Shown: piece by piece, positions 8,289 through 16,300 of the stretch | How the letters are laid out: each line of letters opens with the position of its first letter | How positions within the stretch are numbered: the stretch's first letter is position 1 | Assembly: GCF_022627955.1 (NCBI RefSeq) | Contig: NZ_JABXGD010000002.1 | Coordinates: 310,001 to 374,000, forward strand | DNA length: 64,000 bases | From: Microbacterium sp. C5A9 | Lineage (GTDB): Bacteria; Actinomycetota; Actinomycetes; Actinomycetales; Microbacteriaceae | Reading direction: 5' to 3' | Position numbers and translations under genes: made by a program | The notes under the pieces: model-generated | Database searches by the model: none | What the model saw: the letters and a program-made list of their open reading frames with translations, nothing else | Told to the model about the DNA's origin: nothing

Positions 8289-9611
8289 TCAGGCCTCCTG
8301 GAAGGCTCGAGCCAGCAGCGGCCTGGTCGTCTGGGTGCTCACCCAGACGATGCCGATTCCGAGGACCAGCACGATCCCGATCGTGAGCAGCGACGCCGGT
8401 GCCGTGATCAGCGCCATTCCGAGAAGCGGGAACACGAGGATTCCCGCGCAGAGGGCGGAGCCGATCGACACGGCGAGCAGAGGCGACATGACGGCTCGCT
8501 GGCGTGCGCTGTGCACCGTCTCCATCGGCATCCCCAGCCGGTGCAGGCTCGTGTGCAGCTCTCGCTGATCGAGGACGGAGGCCGCCTGGTTCACACCGAC
8601 GGACGCCGCGACCATGAGGAAGGACGCCACCAGCGTGATGATGAGACCGGTGCGGATGTCGGCCGCGAGTGCGGCGTCGGCCGCGTTCAGGTCCGCGCTG
8701 GACATGACGTTCAGAAGGGACACTCCCGTGCCCGCGAACACCGCGATGAAGCTGGTCATCGCGACACCGCTGACCTGACGCCATGCCGCCTGGGGCGAGT
8801 CGAGGACGATCCGCGCCGCGAGCAGGCCGGACGGCGTCTCGGCGCGGCGGAGGTGCAGTGATGCTCCGACTCTGAGCACCCAGGGGCCGATGACGTTCAC
8901 GACGGCGAGGGCGACGGCGAAGAGGACGGCGAGGACCACGATCGTCACGGTGAGGTCGGCCACCGCAGGGAAGATCTTGATCATCACGAAGATGCCCGCG
9001 AGGACCGCCACCCCGACCACGACGCGGAGCCAGTGCGCGGGCGAGGCGGTGGCGCGAAGACGGACGCCGAGGGGCGAGATGACCACTCGTCTGAGGCCGA
9101 GTGCGGCGCTGGCCGCGGCGAGAAGGAGCACCGCGACCACCACGCCCGTACCGACGAGGGGCGGCATCAGCACCGCGCCGAGTCCGAGCGGACTGCCGCG
9201 GAAGGGGATCATGCCGATCAGCGGGGAGATCGCCAGATGTGCGAGCACGCCGATGAGTGCCCCCGCGGCCGCGACCAACACGGATTCGACGACGGTCGCG
9301 ACGCCCACACCGAGGGGAGTGACCCCCAGAAGCCGCAGAGTGGAGAGTCTCTCATCGCGACGTCGTGCGGAAAGCCGGGCGGCGGCACCGCCGAGGTTCA
9401 TGAGCGGCACGACGAGGAGCACGAGCGCGATGGCTGCCAGAGCCTGGTAGAGGGGAGCCTCGGGATCCGTCCAGGTCCAGAACGACTGTGCGCCCCCGAC
9501 CACCGTCAGCACGAGCGCGGTGACGATCGCGAAGGCCACGACGGGCAGCACCAGGACGGAGCTCTGCCCCTTTGCCGGTCGGAAGAGCAGCAGGAGGGTG
9601 CGAGCGTTCAC
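8289..9611 (-). CDS. FtsX-like ABC transporter permease
   Basis: This is a polytopic membrane protein of 440 residues with the FtsX/MacB-type permease organisation. A first transmembrane helix (LVLPVVAFAIVTALVLTVV, near residues 18-36) is followed by clusters of helices at about 65-170, 210-265 and 300-430. The GTG start at 9611 shares the GTGA overlap with the ATP-binding gene stop, which decides the start over a longer reading frame upstream. With the preceding gene it forms a two-component exporter of unknown substrate. Such pairs often export antimicrobial peptides or lipids, but nothing here shows which. Confidence 0.85.
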   Translation of the reverse strand: MNARTLLLLFRPAKGQSSVLVLPVVAFAIVTALVLTVVGGAQSFWTWTDPEAPLYQALAAIALVLLVVPLMNLGGAAARLSARRRDERLSTLRLLGVTPLGVGVATVVESVLVAAAGALIGVLAHLAISPLIGMIPFRGSPLGLGAVLMPPLVGTGVVVAVLLLAAASAALGLRRVVISPLGVRLRATASPAHWLRVVVGVAVLAGIFVMIKIFPAVADLTVTIVVLAVLFAVALAVVNVIGPWVLRVGASLHLRRAETPSGLLAARIVLDSPQAAWRQVSGVAMTSFIAVFAGTGVSLLNVMSSADLNAADAALAADIRTGLIITLVASFLMVAASVGVNQAASVLDQRELHTSLHRLGMPMETVHSARQRAVMSPLLAVSIGSALCAGILVFPLLGMALITAPASLLTIGIVLVLGIGIVWVSTQTTRPLLARAFQEA

Positions 9612-10303
9612 GCGGCGACCTCCGTCCCGGCGATGCGACCGTCGCGGACGGCCACGGTGCGTGAGCATCGAGCGGCGACCTCGGAGTCGTGGGTGACGAC
9701 GAGCAGCGTGCGGCCCTGCCCCGTCGTCGACCACAGCAGTGCGTCCATGACCTCGTGCGAGGTCTGCGAATCGAGCGCGCCGGTCGGCTCGTCGGCGAAC
9801 ACCAGGTCGGCGCCGGTCGCCTGCGCGCGGGCGATCGCGACGCGCTGAGCCTGACCGCCGGACAGCTCTCCGATCCGGCGGTCCTCCATTCCGGAGAGTC
9901 CGAGCGCAGCGAGCCACGACGCGGCATGGGCGACCGCATCCGCTCTCTTCACTCCGGTGATCATGGAGGCGAGAGCGACGTTCTCGACCGCGGTGAGCTC
10001 GGGGATCAGGAGACCCTGCTGGAAGACGAACCCGAACCTCTCGCGACGGAGCCGTGACCGCGCGGACTCCCCGAGCCCGGCGACGTCGACCGGGCTCCCC
10101 CCGGATGGCTGGAAGCTGACGGTTCCGGAATCGGGCGTGATGATCCCGGCGAGCACGTGCAGCAGTGTGGTCTTGCCGGATCCTGACGCGCCCATGATCG
10201 CCACGGACTCGCCGCGGAGGATCGTCAGATCGACCCCGGCGAGTGCATGGGTGGTTCCGTAGGACTTGGTGAGGTGTCGGGCTTCGAGCACGGATGCGTT
10301 CAT
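9608..10303 (-). CDS. ABC transporter ATP-binding protein (LolD/MacB type)
   Basis: This 231-residue ATPase pairs with the downstream permease. Walker A is GASGSGKTT (residues 38-46), the signature is LSGGQ (147-151), and Walker B is LVFADE (167-172) followed by a typical PTGALDS. The start at 10303 follows a GGAGAC purine stretch; the same six bases separate it from a GAGGCT hexamer. The 87-bp stretch upstream, between this gene and the acetyltransferase operon on the same strand, carries inverted repeats that may be regulatory. Substrate unknown. Confidence 0.9.
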   Translation of the reverse strand: MNASVLEARHLTKSYGTTHALAGVDLTILRGESVAIMGASGSGKTTLLHVLAGIITPDSGTVSFQPSGGSPVDVAGLGESARSRLRRERFGFVFQQGLLIPELTAVENVALASMITGVKRADAVAHAASWLAALGLSGMEDRRIGELSGGQAQRVAIARAQATGADLVFADEPTGALDSQTSHEVMDALLWSTTGQGRTLLVVTHDSEVAARCSRTVAVRDGRIAGTEVAA

Positions 10304-10390: not shown

Positions 10391-11470
10391 TCAGAGACGC
10401 TTCTGCCAGGCCCCCGCGTACGAGACCGCGACGAAGCCGAGCGCTTCGTTGATGCCCAGCATCGGACGGTTCTCCTCAGCGTTGAACGTCGAGACCGCGG
10501 GGGACAGGGACATCAGGTCCCGCCACAGCAGGAGGTTCGCGCACTTGACGACGGTTCCCAGGCGGTGCCCGCGGTGATCACTCGACACGAGCGTTCCGAG
10601 CTGGTGGGTGACGCTCGCGCGGTCGGCCCCGACGAGCAGCTCGTTGTACGCGACGAGAGCACCGGTCGGCACATGCTCGACCGCGACGATCGAGAGAGCC
10701 TGTCCGGCACCCGTGAGCCGATTCTCCCGGCGTACGACCCTGTCGGCGTCCCAGACCTCTGCGACGAAGTCCATGTCTCCGCTCGGCGCGTCCGTCGACA
10801 GCCGCGCGAGGATCGCCGCATAGCCGTCCCGGCGATCCGCCGGAGTCGGTGCCATCCACTGCAGGGTGCGATAGTCGGGGCCGGCCGCCGTCTCTGCGGC
10901 CTCGAGAGCAGCACGGACCGGCGCGGGATCGGACCTCAGGTCGAACTCGCTGTTGCGCTCCACCTGCTCGAACTCGTAGCCGCGCGCCGTCAGGACATCG
11001 GAGAGAGGCGTCGCAGGGATGCGTCCCCAGCCCGTCCTCGGCGTGATCATGCGGTCGGCGTCGATCGGTCGGTGCAGCGTCCAGGTCTGCGCGAGGGAGC
11101 GTCCGTGCGCGCGTGCTTCGGATTCGGCGAGCGAGAGCAGCGCATCCTCGACGCCATGGCCCCAGTGCCGGGCAGGGACCATCAGATCGATCTCCGCCGC
11201 CTGAGCGTCCTCCTCCTGCGGGTAGTCGATCGTGACCATGCCCACGATCTCATCTCCGTGTCGCGCGACGAAGCCGGTGCAGAGCGTGTCGGTGGGATCC
11301 CGCCAGGATGCCAGCAGCTGTGCCGCATCCGGTGCGATGTCCGGCAGACCGACCGCTTCGTCGCATATCAGGCGGTTCAGCTCACCGTACGCGCGGAAAT
11401 CCGCACCTTCGTCGTCCTCGAGCGACGTCGGGACGATGAGGGGAGTGATCGTCAGGGCGATCGTCGTCAT
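10391..11470 (-). CDS. tandem-GNAT family N-acetyltransferase, second paralog
   Basis: This 359-residue protein looks like two GNAT folds in a row. The N-terminal half contains a GNAT-like core (DEIVGMVTIDYP, then a long helix after HWGHGVEDALL). The C-terminal half has VPTGALVAYNELLV and the acetyl-CoA loop DHRGHRLGTVVK, ending EENRPMLGINEALGFVAV, the usual GNAT C-terminal segment. Mycothiol synthase (MshD) has a similar duplicated layout, but the match is only architectural. The ATG overlaps the stop of the upstream paralog by 4 bp (ATGA). The two share the ending motif and overall plan and must derive from a tandem duplication. Substrate unknown. Confidence 0.8.
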   Translation of the reverse strand: MTTIALTITPLIVPTSLEDDEGADFRAYGELNRLICDEAVGLPDIAPDAAQLLASWRDPTDTLCTGFVARHGDEIVGMVTIDYPQEEDAQAAEIDLMVPARHWGHGVEDALLSLAESEARAHGRSLAQTWTLHRPIDADRMITPRTGWGRIPATPLSDVLTARGYEFEQVERNSEFDLRSDPAPVRAALEAAETAAGPDYRTLQWMAPTPADRRDGYAAILARLSTDAPSGDMDFVAEVWDADRVVRRENRLTGAGQALSIVAVEHVPTGALVAYNELLVGADRASVTHQLGTLVSSDHRGHRLGTVVKCANLLLWRDLMSLSPAVSTFNAEENRPMLGINEALGFVAVSYAGAWQKRL

Positions 11471-12555
11471 GACAGTTCCTTCTTCCAGGCGCCTTCGTAG
11501 GCGATGGCGGTGAAGCCCAGGGCCTCGTTGATGGAGAGCATCGGCCGGTTCTCCTCGGCGTTGTAGGTGATGACGTCGCGCGACGACGGAGCGACCTCCG
11601 CCCAGGCGAGGAGGGCCGCGCATTTCACGAGCTGTCCGAGCCGGTTGCCCCGGTGCTCCTTCAGAACCAGCGTGTCGTGCTGATGGGTCGTGGCTGTCAG
11701 GTCGGGACCGATCCCGAGCTCGGTGAACGCCGCGAGCTCTCCCGTCGCGATGTGCTGCGCGAAGGTCACCTGCATCGTCTGCGCCATCTCGGCGATGCGC
11801 TCCTCAGCGGCGGTGACTCGGGCGGCGTCCCAGGACTCCTCGTCCGTCTCGAGATCCGCGGACGGCGCGTCCGTCGACATCCGCGACTTCAGCCACGCGT
11901 ATCCGTCGAGGTGCTCCGCCGGGGTCGGGACGGTCCACTGCAGCACGCGGTACTCGGTGGAGAACCGTCGAGCGTCGTCGAGGAGGTCGCGAGCGCGGTC
12001 CCACGCATCGACGTCCAGATCGAGCCGACTCACCCGGTAGACCTGCTCGAGGGTGAATCCGTGCCGCGTGAGGAACCGTGCGACGTGGTCATCCGGCACG
12101 CTGCCGAATCCGGTGCGTGCGTCGAGGCGGGAGCCGGAGCTCGCCTGCTGCTCGGTCCAGTTCTGGATCACGGAGCGCCCGTGTTCGCGGGCGACCGCCT
12201 CGATGTGCGGCATGATCGCCGTGCCGATCCCTCGACCCCAGACCCGCGGATGGATCTCGATCGCGGCGATGGCGACGCGGGATCCCTCCTCGTGCGGGAT
12301 GTCGACGACGGTACGACCGACCATCTCGCCGTCGACGCGAACCGCCCACACGACCGTCGTCCGCTCCGCGCGGGAGCGCAGGAGCGGCAGCAGGGCCTCG
12401 GGCGCGAGGTCCTGCTCGGTCCGTCCGGTGAGTTCGCGGTAGACCTCGTTGCGGACGCGGGAGAGTTCGCGGAACTCTCCCGCGTCCGCGGCATCCGCTC
12501 GCGCAGGCAGCACGAGCGGATGCAGCGTTGCACCATCGATGAGGGTGATGCTCAT
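11467..12555 (-). CDS. tandem-GNAT family N-acetyltransferase, first paralog
   Basis: This is a 362-residue paralog of the next gene. The N-terminal GNAT half reads GEMVGRTVVDIPHEEG, then VWGRGIGTAIMPHIEA, a good acetyl-CoA loop (RGIGTA). The C-terminal half reads ATGELAAFTELGIG, then EHRGNRLGQLVK and EENRPMLSINEALGFTAI. Both halves therefore keep plausible acetyl-CoA-binding motifs, while the downstream paralog has a degenerate first loop (HWGHGVEDA). It starts 13 bp after the 92-aa gene, in one operon. Related double-GNAT proteins occur widely in Microbacteriaceae; I know of no assigned substrate. Confidence 0.8.
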   Translation of the reverse strand: MSITLIDGATLHPLVLPARADAADAGEFRELSRVRNEVYRELTGRTEQDLAPEALLPLLRSRAERTTVVWAVRVDGEMVGRTVVDIPHEEGSRVAIAAIEIHPRVWGRGIGTAIMPHIEAVAREHGRSVIQNWTEQQASSGSRLDARTGFGSVPDDHVARFLTRHGFTLEQVYRVSRLDLDVDAWDRARDLLDDARRFSTEYRVLQWTVPTPAEHLDGYAWLKSRMSTDAPSADLETDEESWDAARVTAAEERIAEMAQTMQVTFAQHIATGELAAFTELGIGPDLTATTHQHDTLVLKEHRGNRLGQLVKCAALLAWAEVAPSSRDVITYNAEENRPMLSINEALGFTAIAYEGAWKKELS

Positions 12556-12568
12556 GGTCGTCTCCAGG

Positions 12569-12847
12569 TCAGCGCAGCTGTCGCTGCAGATCGAACGTCA
12601 TCAGGGCGAGCGCCTCAGCGGCGGGACGCTCTCGTTTCTCCAGGTGGAGCGGGTCGACCGAGAAGGTCGACGCGCGCCGTGCCGGCCGAGGCCGCTGAGC
12701 GCGCTGGAGCAGCCAGAGGCCGACTCGGAGCGAGAGACGATCGGCGAGCGCGAGGCGCCGCAGGTCGTCGGGTACGGGGATGTGGAGGACCTGCTGGTCC
12801 TCGGTATCCGGTGGATGGGTGGTGCTGCGGTACAGCGTGGTGTTCAC
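12569..12847 (-). CDS. 92-residue protein of unknown function
   Basis: I do not recognise this protein. The GTG start at 12847 is preceded by AAGGA at 5-nt spacing, which selects it over a longer frame. The sequence begins VNTTLYRSTTHP, has a central helix-rich segment (LALADRLSLRVGLWLLQRAQ) that could be amphipathic, then a basic stretch (RPRPARRAS), and ends with ALMTFDLQRQLR. No signal peptide or cysteine is seen. It is the first structural gene after a hairpin-rich leader and precedes the two double-GNAT genes, so it may work with or regulate them. Codon use is like its neighbours. Confidence 0.65.
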   Translation of the reverse strand: MNTTLYRSTTHPPDTEDQQVLHIPVPDDLRRLALADRLSLRVGLWLLQRAQRPRPARRASTFSVDPLHLEKRERPAAEALALMTFDLQRQLR

Positions 12848-13100
12848 GATGATCCTTCGAGATGTGTGGTGTGGAGGGGGTCGAGAGGTCCCTGTCATCC
12901 GTCGGAGCAGACTCCATGACGGATGACGGGACGCGAAGCCCGACGAGACCCCGACGGCGCGAGGACGCAGATGCCGGGTCGGCGGGATCCGTGATCTGAC
13001 TGCAGATCAGAGGGTGGCGCGCGAAGGTGCGCGGCGGAGGACGGTAATCGCAGGTCTCAGACCTGGTGCCGGCGTGCGGCGGAGTCCCCGGACAGCAGTG
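12848..13100 (-). promoter_or_regulatory. hairpin-rich untranslated leader upstream of the GNAT operon
   Basis: These 253 bases separate a short ORF from the operon. Three stems stand out: 13051-13065 (6 bp, 3-nt loop), 12992-13009 (7 bp, 4-nt loop), and 12891-12930, where 13-nt arms (one mismatch) enclose a further 4-bp stem with a CAGA loop. No run of T follows the big hairpin on either strand, so it is not a standard intrinsic terminator. A regulatory leader is an inference from its position after a small ORF. Confidence 0.5.
12891..12930. repeat. long near-perfect inverted repeat
   Basis: The arms are 12891-12903 and 12918-12930, with 12 of 13 positions complementary. Inside, GGAG (12904-12907) pairs with CTCC (12912-12915). 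The combined stem is about 16 bp and is the strongest structure in this intergenic region. Confidence 0.75.
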
Positions 13101-13205
13101 CTACGAGAGCGTGCTGATCTGGACGCCGGCGGTTACCGAGTGCGCAGTGCGCGGCGCGAATGGCGCGGCGAGGCCTGTGGCCTGTGCGGTGAGTGTGATC
13201 ATCAT
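13101..13205 (-). CDS. putative 34-residue leader peptide
   Basis: A near-consensus Shine-Dalgarno sequence (AAAGGAGGT, 13219-13211) is 5-6 nt from ATGATG, opening a 34-codon ORF that begins MMITLTAQATG and ends ISTLS before TAG. It has no recognisable domain. Its position between a strong-looking promoter and a hairpin-rich 253-nt leader suggests a regulatory upstream ORF rather than a functional protein. Translation is inferred from the ribosome-binding site only. The second ATG (13202) is an alternative start. Confidence 0.5.
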   Translation of the reverse strand: MMITLTAQATGLAAPFAPRTAHSVTAGVQISTLS

Positions 13206-13207
13206 CG

Positions 13208-13241
13208 GTAACCTCCTTTCGTGTGGCGATCCGGAGGTTAC
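13208..13241. repeat. 9-bp inverted repeat flanking the leader transcription start
   Basis: GTAACCTCC (13208-13216, plus strand) is the exact inverse of GGAGGTTAC (13233-13241). One arm contains the Shine-Dalgarno of the small ORF; the other overlaps the end of the -10 element. With the predicted start site near 13232 the second arm is not transcribed, so this is more likely a DNA-level operator than an RNA hairpin. Confidence 0.55.
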
Positions 13242-13269
13242 GGTAGCGACACCCGGGCGTGTCCGTCAA
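13240..13269 (-). promoter_or_regulatory. sigma70-type promoter with palindrome in spacer, GNAT operon
   Basis: On the minus strand the -35 is TTGACG (13269-13264) and the -10 is TACCGT (13245-13240), separated by 18 bp. The spacer contains GACAC-N6-GTGTC (13248-13263). This is the best-matched -35/-10 pair I found in the window. A palindrome there would suit a repressor, or an activator acting on the spacer. Confidence 0.65.
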
Positions 13270-13356
13270 GCAGGCACGGCGTGGATCGGCGTGTCGCGAC
13301 CTGCCGCGGTTCGGCGTGATCCCGCGCGGGATGCCGGGAAAACCGCGTGATTCCGG

Positions 13357-13362
13357 TAGCGT
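13357..13362 (+). promoter_or_regulatory. -10 element upstream of smc
   Basis: TAGCGT is followed by 6 nt and a GTG at 13369 that opens a 12-codon ORF overlapping the smc start. The smc ATG is 35 nt from the hexamer. Confidence 0.4.
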
Positions 13363-13397
13363 ATGGGCGTGATTCACCCCGGAAGCGCGGCACGCGC

Positions 13398-16300
13398 ATG
13401 CATCTGAAGAGCCTGACCCTCAAGGGGTTCAAGTCCTTCGCGCAGCCGACCAGCTTCGTCTTCGAACCGGGAGTGACCTGCATCGTCGGTCCGAACGGAT
13501 CGGGCAAGTCGAACGTCGTCGACGCTCTCGCCTGGGTGATGGGCGAGCAGGGGGCGAAGACGCTCCGCGGCGGCAAGATGGAGGACGTGATCTTCGCGGG
13601 CACCTCGACCCGCGGTCCGCTCGGCCGCGCCGAGGTCCAGCTCACGATCGACAACAGCGACGGTGCCCTGCCGATCGACTACGCCGAGGTCACGATCAGC
13701 AGGACGCTGTTCCGAAACGGCTCCAGCGAGTACGCGATCAACGGCGAGAACTGCCGTCTGCTCGATGTGCAGGAGCTGCTGAGCGACTCGGGACTCGGTC
13801 GAGAGATGCACGTGATCGTCGGGCAGGGACGTCTCGACACGGTGCTTCAGGCGTCGCCCGAGGATCGTCGTGGCTTCATCGAGGAGGCCGCCGGCATCCT
13901 GAAGCATCGTCGTCGCAAGGAGAAGACCCTTCGCAAGCTCGACGCGATGGAGACGAACCTCACGCGCCTGAGCGACCTCGCCGGCGAGATCCGCAGGCAG
14001 CTGAAGCCGCTGGGACGCCAGGCGGAGATCGCTCGGGAGGCGCAGACCATCGCCGCGGTCGTGCGCGATGCCAAGGCGCGCATCTTCGCCGACGATGTCG
14101 TCGCACTCCGCACCGCTCTCGCCGATCACACGCGCACCGAACAGGAACGCCACACCGAACGGCTGGTCCTGAGCGACCAGGCCGAGGCCGTGCGTGCGAG
14201 CATCGCCCGCCTCGAGCAGGACCAGAACTCGGTGGCCGTCGACCAGGCGCGTGGGGTGGCTTTCGGTCTCGAGCAGGTGCAGGAGCGCATGCGCGGTCTG
14301 TACACGCTCGCGAACCAGCGCCTCGCTCTCCTGGGGTCGGAGGAGGACGATGCAGCGGTCACGGCGGTGACGGTCACGCAGAGCACGATCGACGACGCGC
14401 AGGACGAGATCACCGAGATCTCGGCCGGTCTCGGCGACGCCCAGGATGCTGCGACCGTGGCGAGCCGCGAGGTCGTGCACGCGCGCGCGGAGCTGGACAC
14501 GCTCGACGTCGACATCGCGGAGCAGAGCGCCCTGGTGTCTGCGTACGACATGCGTCTGAGCGCGCTTCGCGGGACGGCGGACGCCGCCGCGTCTGCTCTC
14601 GCCGCGGTGCGGGGCGCCGTCCTGCGGCAGGAGAACGCACTGGAGGCGGCGAACAACCGGCGCCGCGAGGCGGCCGAGGCACTCGACGGTATCGACCAGG
14701 CGGAGGCGCCGGAGGGGACGGCAGCGGAGCACTCCGCCGCGTACGACAGTGCGCAGCGCGCGGCCTCTGCCGCGGAAGCCGAGCGGGAGACGCTCCGGGA
14801 GCGTCTGCACGCTGCCGAGCGAGAGGTCGACGCGCTCACGGCCAAGTCGGCTGCTCTCGGCAGCGCACTCGCGATCTCGGGGGGTGCGGCCGAGATCGTC
14901 AAGGGCGGCGGCACAGGCATCCGTGGACTCGTGGGTGATTCCGTGCAGGTCAGAGCCGGTTTTGAGGCCGCGATCGCCGCGGTGCTGGGCCCGCTCGCCG
15001 AGGGTGTGCTCGTCGAGCGCTCCTCGGATGCGTTCGCTCTCGCGGCGGACGTCGCCGAGCATCACCGCGGAGTGGTCGACTTCGTCGTTGCCGAGGGCAT
15101 CCGTCCGTCGGTCGAGCTGCCGACGCTCGATGGCGTCACCCCGGCCGTCGACACCGTGACCGCCCCCGAGGGTGTGCTCGGAATCCTGTCCCACGTGCTC
15201 ATCGCGGACGGTCTCGACACGGCACGAGCGGCGCGCGCGACCCTCGACGCGGTCGGTGACGTTCTGACGACGATCGTCACGACCGCGGGCGATGTCGTCA
15301 CGGCGCAGACGGTGCGCACCGGATCGGGCGGTGAGCGCTCACGTCTCGAGCTCGCGGCCGAGCGCGACGCGGCCGACGAACGGCTCGCCGAAGTGCAGGT
15401 GATCGTCGACTCGCTGCGCGAAGCCCGCGCGGAGGCGGACGAGACGGTCGAGACATCACGTCGGCAAGCGAAGGATGCGCTCCGTGCTCTTCGTGAGCAC
15501 GATGCCGCGCTGGCCAGTCACGCCGAGCAGGTGAACCGCGTCACCGTGACGCATGAGTCGGCGGTCGCAGAGTGCGAGAGGCTCGAGACAGGGCTGGCGC
15601 AGGCACAGGCCGCGGTGGCGGATGCGGAGGCGAAGGCCGAGGCGGCCAAAGCCGAGGTCGACGCTGCCGTGTCCGCACCCCGACCGGTTCTCGACGCCTC
15701 GGCACGCGACGGTCTGCTCGAAGCACTGGAGTCGGCGCGTGAGAACGAGATCCGCGCGCGGCTCGAGATCGAGACGCTGCGCGAACGTGTGCGCGCAGCA
15801 CAGGCGCGGGTCGTGAGCCTCGAGCGCCAGCGGGAGCAGGAACGCGACGCCGCCGCGGAGGCGGCCCGTCGTGCGGTGATCCGGCGCGGTCAGCGCGAGG
15901 CGGCTGCCGGGGTCGCGGAAGAGCTCCCGCGCATCCTCGACTCGATCGATCGCTCGGTCACCGAGGCGCGGGTCGCGCTGGCGGAGGCCGAAGCGGCACG
16001 GTCCGCTCAGAATCACGAGCTGACCGCGCTTCGTGCTCAGGAGACCTCGTTGCGCGAGCGACTCGCAGGGCTCACGGAGAGTGTGCACGGACTCGAACTG
16101 CAGATCCACGAGAAGAAGCTGCACCTGCACAGTCTCCTGGAGCGCGTGGCATCGGAGCTCGCTCTCGATGAAGATATTCTCATTGCGGAATATGGACCCG
16201 ACCAGCTGATTCCGCGCGATCCGGGTGCACCGCCGACAGAAGACGGGCATTCCGACGACACCGCGATCCCCTTCGACCGGCGAATCCAACAACGGCGACT

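Follow-up and report, generated by a model that had tools for sequence, protein, structure and literature searches.

What does a 34-codon open reading frame (ORF) do behind a strong Shine-Dalgarno sequence (SD) and ahead of an operon for a 92-AA protein (p92) and two GNAT proteins in Microbacterium sp. C5A9? The locus lies on the minus strand of the window (the whole 64,000-nt stretch of DNA that was analysed), divergent from smc, in the order promoter, SD, 34-codon ORF (uORF), 253-nt gap, p92 gene and two GNAT genes (Table 1). At the level of sequence, comparison with relatives showed that the promoter, the SD, the short ORF and the complementarity of the ribosome-binding site (RBS) with the distal part of the same ORF are kept while the peptide drifts. 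We regard it as about an even call that the leader is a translation-sensing switch, with an RBS complementary to its own distal ORF, that sets transcription into the p92-GNAT operon. Its output would likely run through Rho; the Rho step itself, the direction of control and what is sensed are predictions.

Table 1. Features of the leader and of the operon behind it (positions in the window).
Feature	Position	Strand	Remark
-35 element TTGACG	13264..13269	-	seen in sequence; kept in relatives
-10 element TACCGT	13240..13245	-	18 nt from -35; kept in relatives
Shine-Dalgarno GAAAGGAGGT of leader ORF	13211..13220	-	longest SD match in window
S1, RBS/start half of conserved stem, GGTTACCGA	13205..13213	-	complementary to S2; covariation
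Leader ORF (uORF), 34 codons	13101..13205	-	short ORF in same place in 116/118 distinct regions
Hairpin AGGCC-ACA-GGCCT inside uORF, clade-level	13171..13183	-	consensus fold of 47 loci, mostly invariant pairs
S2, distal half of conserved stem, TCGGTAACC, codons Ser-Val-Thr	13131..13139	-	covariation with S1
Gap rich in C and poor in G, predicted site of Rho loading	12848..13100	-	C minus G 0.15
Gap hairpin TGATCTGCAGTCAGATCA	12992..13009	-	covaries within the window's clade; consensus fold of 47 loci
Large hairpin, perfect 10-bp part	12894..12927	-	in predicted fold; not a conserved element
p92, 92-AA protein, GTG start	12569..12847	-	131 homologues
Tandem-GNAT protein 1	11467..12555	-	Pfam GNAT; best solved match ORF14, 2wpw, E 1e-17
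Tandem-GNAT protein 2	10391..11470	-	Pfam GNAT; best solved match ORF14, 2wpw, E 3.6e-14

The TTGACG-18-TACCGT promoter that an initial annotation had placed on the minus strand was confirmed in the sequence. A strict sigma-70 scan returned no site for it, but it is conserved in relatives: TTGAC is found 49–83 nt upstream of the uORF start in 113/116 loci (vs. 2.2% of shuffled segments), and in 112/116 a TAnnnT follows the -35 hexamer at a spacing of 17 or 18 nt (TTGAC-17/18-TAnnnT). The transcription start is predicted near 13231–13234. The same annotation had credited the 34-codon ORF with the strongest RBS of the window, and of the 93 candidate starts with a match of at least 6 on both strands of the 64 kb, it is indeed this ORF whose SD matches the anti-SD complement over the greatest length. 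The 253 nt behind the uORF are likewise free of genes, as had been stated, up to the GTG of the 92-AA ORF. A GACACGC element on the minus strand (13287–13297 and 13257–13263) lies upstream of the leader promoter and here also inside it. At least one copy is present between smc and the uORF in 94/116 loci (mean 1.08 vs. 0.03 in shuffled regions), in some of them as two copies 9–13 nt apart, and CGACACGCC occurs in 87/116; the GACACGC element is possibly an operator for some regulator, or belongs to smc control.

For the comparison we used 118 distinct Microbacterium regions upstream of smc, with identical regions merged. Of these, 117 have a start codon behind a strong SD and 116 a short ORF (23–43 codons), which bears out the earlier proposal of a leader ORF ahead of the operon. 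The first set comprised 60 loci with smc and p92, which gave 51 distinct intergenic regions, all with a strong-SD short ORF. Among 35 further stretches the leader ORF was found in 34 by filter and in one (L085, SD core GGGGG) by eye; the SD filter was widened by hand so that L085 counts. The third set of 40 genus genomes (L158–L197) was hand-picked for weak or missing p92, and the whole is thus no random sample of the genus; here SD and start were found in 39 and the short ORF in 38, and L164 is without them. Some of the loci carry diverged p92-like ORFs, and in L197, where no p92-like ORF was found by the filter, the uORF ends ~180 nt before the GNAT gene. Locus L193, open for 179 codons, was left out of the promoter, cluster, phase, recoding and GACACGC tests, which cover 116 of 117 loci, and near-identical strains were kept separate except in the tests on 16 clusters.

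Among 28 smc loci from other genera, 10 have a related GNAT gene 92–229 nt from smc but no such uORF, and the same holds for three Salinibacterium loci. Since these smc-GNAT loci lack it, the leader seems, on the sequences compared, to have arisen in the Microbacterium lineage. A search with the leader DNA gave matches in 59/198 genus genomes; the 36 matches with E <1e-20 all lie at most 600 nt from the p92 match of the same genome, and some weak matches lie elsewhere. Rfam covariance models gave no match at E up to 5 in 12500–13500, and full-text searches of open-access papers listed no account of such a leader.

The main comparison concerns the complementarity of S1 and S2. For each locus the 17 nt from the SD to the start codon were scored for complementarity against the remainder of the same uORF. 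The best complementarity averaged 21.9 in 117 loci, compared with 16.6 for the RBS of another locus and 15.5 after codon shuffling; scores of at least 20 were reached by 79% of loci vs. 17% with swapped RBS and 8% with shuffled codons. When loci were grouped into 16 clusters (70% identity), the score was 21.6 vs. 16.3±0.79 for permuted partners, with 19.0 as the largest of 500 permutations, and without the SD core it was still 19.5 vs. 14.5±0.76. Synonymous recoding with each peptide kept gave 15.3±0.78 (largest of 200: 17.9) vs. the observed 21.6, and therefore the peptide does not explain the complementarity of S1 and S2. The stem sequences themselves differ among loci, e.g. GGTTACCGA/TCGGTAACC, GGTCACCGA/TCGGTGACC, GGTCCCCG/CGGGGACC, GGTCGCC/GGCGACC, GGTCACAGC/GCTGTGACC and GGAGAACG/CGTTCTCC. 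When the six clusters with at least 4 members were aligned without regard to structure, 935/1141 stem cells were paired, and in 38 both sides had changed. Comparison of these sequences thus shows that compensatory change maintains the complementarity between the RBS and start of the uORF and its distal part. Stems that control the operon had been proposed before, and a pairing in which the uORF takes part does covary; it joins the RBS to the distal segment of the same ORF.

Several observations count against a switch. The remaining 206/1141 stem cells are unpaired, many of them in the L020, L021 and L097 clusters, and weak stems (score <19) were found in 4/16 clusters. Predicted pairing of the SD is moderate, with a mean probability of 0.71 over 116 loci and values >0.8 in 27, and mononucleotide shuffles are almost as stable as the 5′UTR with the uORF (mean z -0.6 in 34 of 101 loci). 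The 421-nt leader as a whole folds better than dinucleotide shuffles (z -4.0). As self-complementarity in one sequence is not rare (6/73 starts of the window score at least 23), the case for the stem rests on the comparison.

The gap behind the uORF has a marked composition. Its C minus G value in the window corresponds to the 99.7th percentile of 250-nt windows (mean 0, sd 0.05), and in the relatives it exceeds 0.12 in all 101 measured loci, with a mean of 0.18; the smc-side part of the same regions has 0.03, and 13 smc-GNAT gaps of other genera range from -0.05 to 0.09. Gap composition and partners of S2 were evaluated in 101/117 loci (stem score at least 19, ORF of at most 60 codons). This composition is that of Rho loading regions, which we take as a lead and not as proof of Rho, and the Rho route named as an option in the initial annotation is compatible with it. 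Yet the gap is more structured than its shuffles (z -2.3 in 34 of 101 loci), though it should be open for Rho. The stretches centred 20–39 nt before p92 are the least structured of the gap and the p92 RBS is open there, so that control before p92 translation is plausible.

On these grounds, the proposed switch would be a race on the nascent RNA between ribosome initiation and synthesis of the distal segment S2. In the window S2 lies 82 nt downstream of the SD, which would leave the first ribosome a short time; at usual polymerase speeds 82 nt take about 2 s. With early initiation the translating ribosome would keep the stem open and the C-rich RNA free, and Rho could then load and end transcription in the gap. 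With slow initiation, under ribosome-targeting drugs or when free ribosomes are few, the stem would close. This would block the uORF and conceal some of the region where Rho enters, and transcription would continue into p92 and the acetyltransferase genes. The predicted sign is therefore induction of the operon when initiation is slow. What counts against the switch here is that the gap is untranslated whether the uORF is open or closed; for a closed stem to keep Rho off the gap, the uORF itself would have to contribute an essential portion of the Rho site.

Leaders of related design are known. In ermC-type translational attenuators the leader ORF lies in a stem that ribosomes can open. The Microbacterium leader ORF is predicted to lie in a ribosome-openable stem as well but, unlike these attenuators, it shows no additional conserved stretches that cover the downstream RBS. 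In aapA1 type I toxin mRNAs the RBS of a short ORF is reportedly masked by long-range pairing, with folding during transcription; there, however, the short ORF is the toxin, whereas the Microbacterium peptide is not conserved. In our best reading of the sequences, the leader would be a variant of the known uORF type whose RBS is masked by its own codons, here with a distal partner.

The closest tested system that we found is the uORF of duf1127_1 in Sinorhizobium meliloti, and the best reading is that the Microbacterium leader would, by analogy, work alike. The RBS of this uORF is predicted to pair with the C-rich codons 3–10, translation exposes these codons to a factor presumed to be Rho, and they are protected when initiation is slow or a ribosome stalls at the start, so that tetracycline raises the gene (PMC12218461). 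In that system the RNA and not the peptide matters, as synonymous changes alter control, and the authors propose that the uORF supplies a needed part of the Rho site (PMC12218461). Both leaders have a uORF RBS complementary to its own codons and a C-rich region behind, a proposed sensing of ribosome availability and an output attributed to Rho (PMC12218461). They differ in that the Microbacterium partner is distal, 82 nt from the SD, vs. codons 3–10 by the RBS in S. meliloti, and in phylum, genes and kind of support, which is comparative here and experimental there (PMC12218461). In E. coli toiL-topAI a uORF likewise pairs within the leader and reports translation stress, with Rho downstream; toiL, however, pairs with the topAI RBS (PMC12121999), whereas in Microbacterium the search for a partner of the downstream RBS gave none. 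CruR (PMC9426467) and tnaC (PMC12218461) share the scheme in which Rho decides behind a short or leading ORF, but they need nascent-peptide stalling, whereas no conserved stall motif is seen in the Microbacterium leader.

The same anatomy could also act the other way round: the operon would be expressed only while the uORF is translated, and the closed stem would be the off state when ribosomes are scarce. No computed result fixes the sign. We nevertheless consider this unlikely, as the sole tested system with such logic has the other sign (PMC12218461), and as the distant resemblance of the GNAT proteins to drug acetyltransferases would fit induction by translation stress.

The two tandem-GNAT genes overlap by 4 nt and neither product has a PADLOC match. 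Their best solved match is ORF14, a tandem GNAT encoded in the clavulanic acid cluster. For p92 no Pfam, NCBIfam or PADLOC match was found, and most of the named homologues come from Microbacterium. In the aligned family (42 members) an HPPDT motif stands at the N terminus and a helix lies around DRLSLRxGLWLL; compared with Pfam the family gave no family and two weak single-member matches. The structure model of p92 was too poor for use (mean pLDDT 64.6). A gene for an ABC transporter ATPase (9608–10300) follows on the same strand, 90 nt after the second GNAT gene.

The position of the SD partner within the ORF takes many values, mostly 50–83 nt into the ORF, i.e. in its distal part. The phase, counted for 102 of the 116 loci, is the same in 97/102 loci and in 10/12 clusters, and the S1–S2 distance changes mostly in steps of three. 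Partner positions in one phase indicate that the reading frame is kept. Openness of the ORF alone is weak evidence of this, because frame +2 likewise stays open across this stretch in 92/116 loci (frame +1 in 3/116). The peptide, by comparison, is weakly constrained: in 47 close relatives of the window's clade its pN/pS is 0.74 and the diversities at the three codon positions are 0.18, 0.19 and 0.24. The peptides differ from clade to clade with no common sequence across the genus, and no conserved stall residues were seen across clades; what recurs is a Ser-Val or Ser-Phe patch, in or adjoining the segment that faces the RBS.

The initial annotation had favoured an arrest-peptide attenuator, in which a drug or metabolite stalls the ribosome at particular uORF codons and thereby frees the downstream RBS or blocks Rho. 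A leader ORF, a strong SD and a drug-type acetyltransferase fold downstream would suit it, but we rate it as quite improbable. A drug-specific arrest peptide is unlikely because the peptide is clade-variable and weakly constrained, its one shared patch is the one in or next to the RBS-facing segment, and a general sensor of translation fits better. Alternative partners for S2 or for the p92 RBS were not found either. A third segment in the gap that pairs with S2 was rejected (17.0 vs. 16.6 shuffled and 16.7 swapped in 101 loci), and one gap hairpin, at 12992–13009, covaries in the window's own clade, so the downstream stems do not appear as the alternative hairpins that had been proposed. Masking of the p92 RBS by the gap (14.7 vs. 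14.8 shuffled) or by the uORF (14.2 vs. 13.8) was likewise rejected in 72 loci. The largest stem of the initial annotation is present in the predicted fold but is no conserved element, as perfect hairpins of at least 8 bp occur in 31/72 relatives' gaps vs. 31.3 in shuffled gaps. In the close relative L002 a perfect 10-bp hairpin lies ~48 nt before p92, where the window has its large stem; its sequence is unrelated to that stem and chance is possible. Alignment across relatives, the check suggested with the annotation, thus gave a mixed outcome: the ORF is kept and the RBS stem covaries, whereas peptide and large hairpin are not conserved.

That the product of the uORF is a small protein with a role of its own, whose amount the stem only limits, would account for the kept reading frame and start signals; we judge it very improbable, as there is no common peptide across clades and the window's peptide has no family match in Pfam or NCBIfam. 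An extension of the stem into the 5′UTR appears in the clade consensus fold (47 loci) and scores 13.0 vs. 12.65±0.15 permuted (largest of 20: 12.94) in 116 loci; it was unsupported in the 16 clusters (13.2 vs. 12.4±0.54, largest of 200: 14.1). The upstream TAACCTCC as an anti-SD scored 14.4 vs. 12.6 shuffled and overlaps the promoter. The least probable account makes the stem a stabiliser of the 5′ end of the mRNA with a secondary RBS overlap, and although S1 lies ~20–30 nt from the predicted transcript start, the SD, start codon and frame are conserved along with the stem, and the stem's extension to the extreme 5′ end is unsupported across clusters.

Returning to the translation-sensing switch, we tentatively go one step further and suggest, as something short of an even call, that the leader may be a translation-initiation clock: the peptide would be irrelevant, the near-perfect SD would have to catch a ribosome in the time until the distal end of the same ORF is transcribed and locks it, and ribosome supply would be turned into a Rho decision. 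Together with this, and just as tentatively, it may represent a genus-wide regulatory RNA of Microbacterium with compensatory evolution inside a kept frame. Recognition of leader ORFs usually relies on regulatory codons or on the conservation of a stall peptide. In Microbacterium the ORF, the RBS and their mutual pairing are kept while the peptide drifts, and peptide-based searches would miss such leaders. If it works as predicted, the leader would report in a natural and simple way on the capacity for translation initiation, and it would offer a clean high-GC Gram-positive test system for the path from ribosome supply to Rho.
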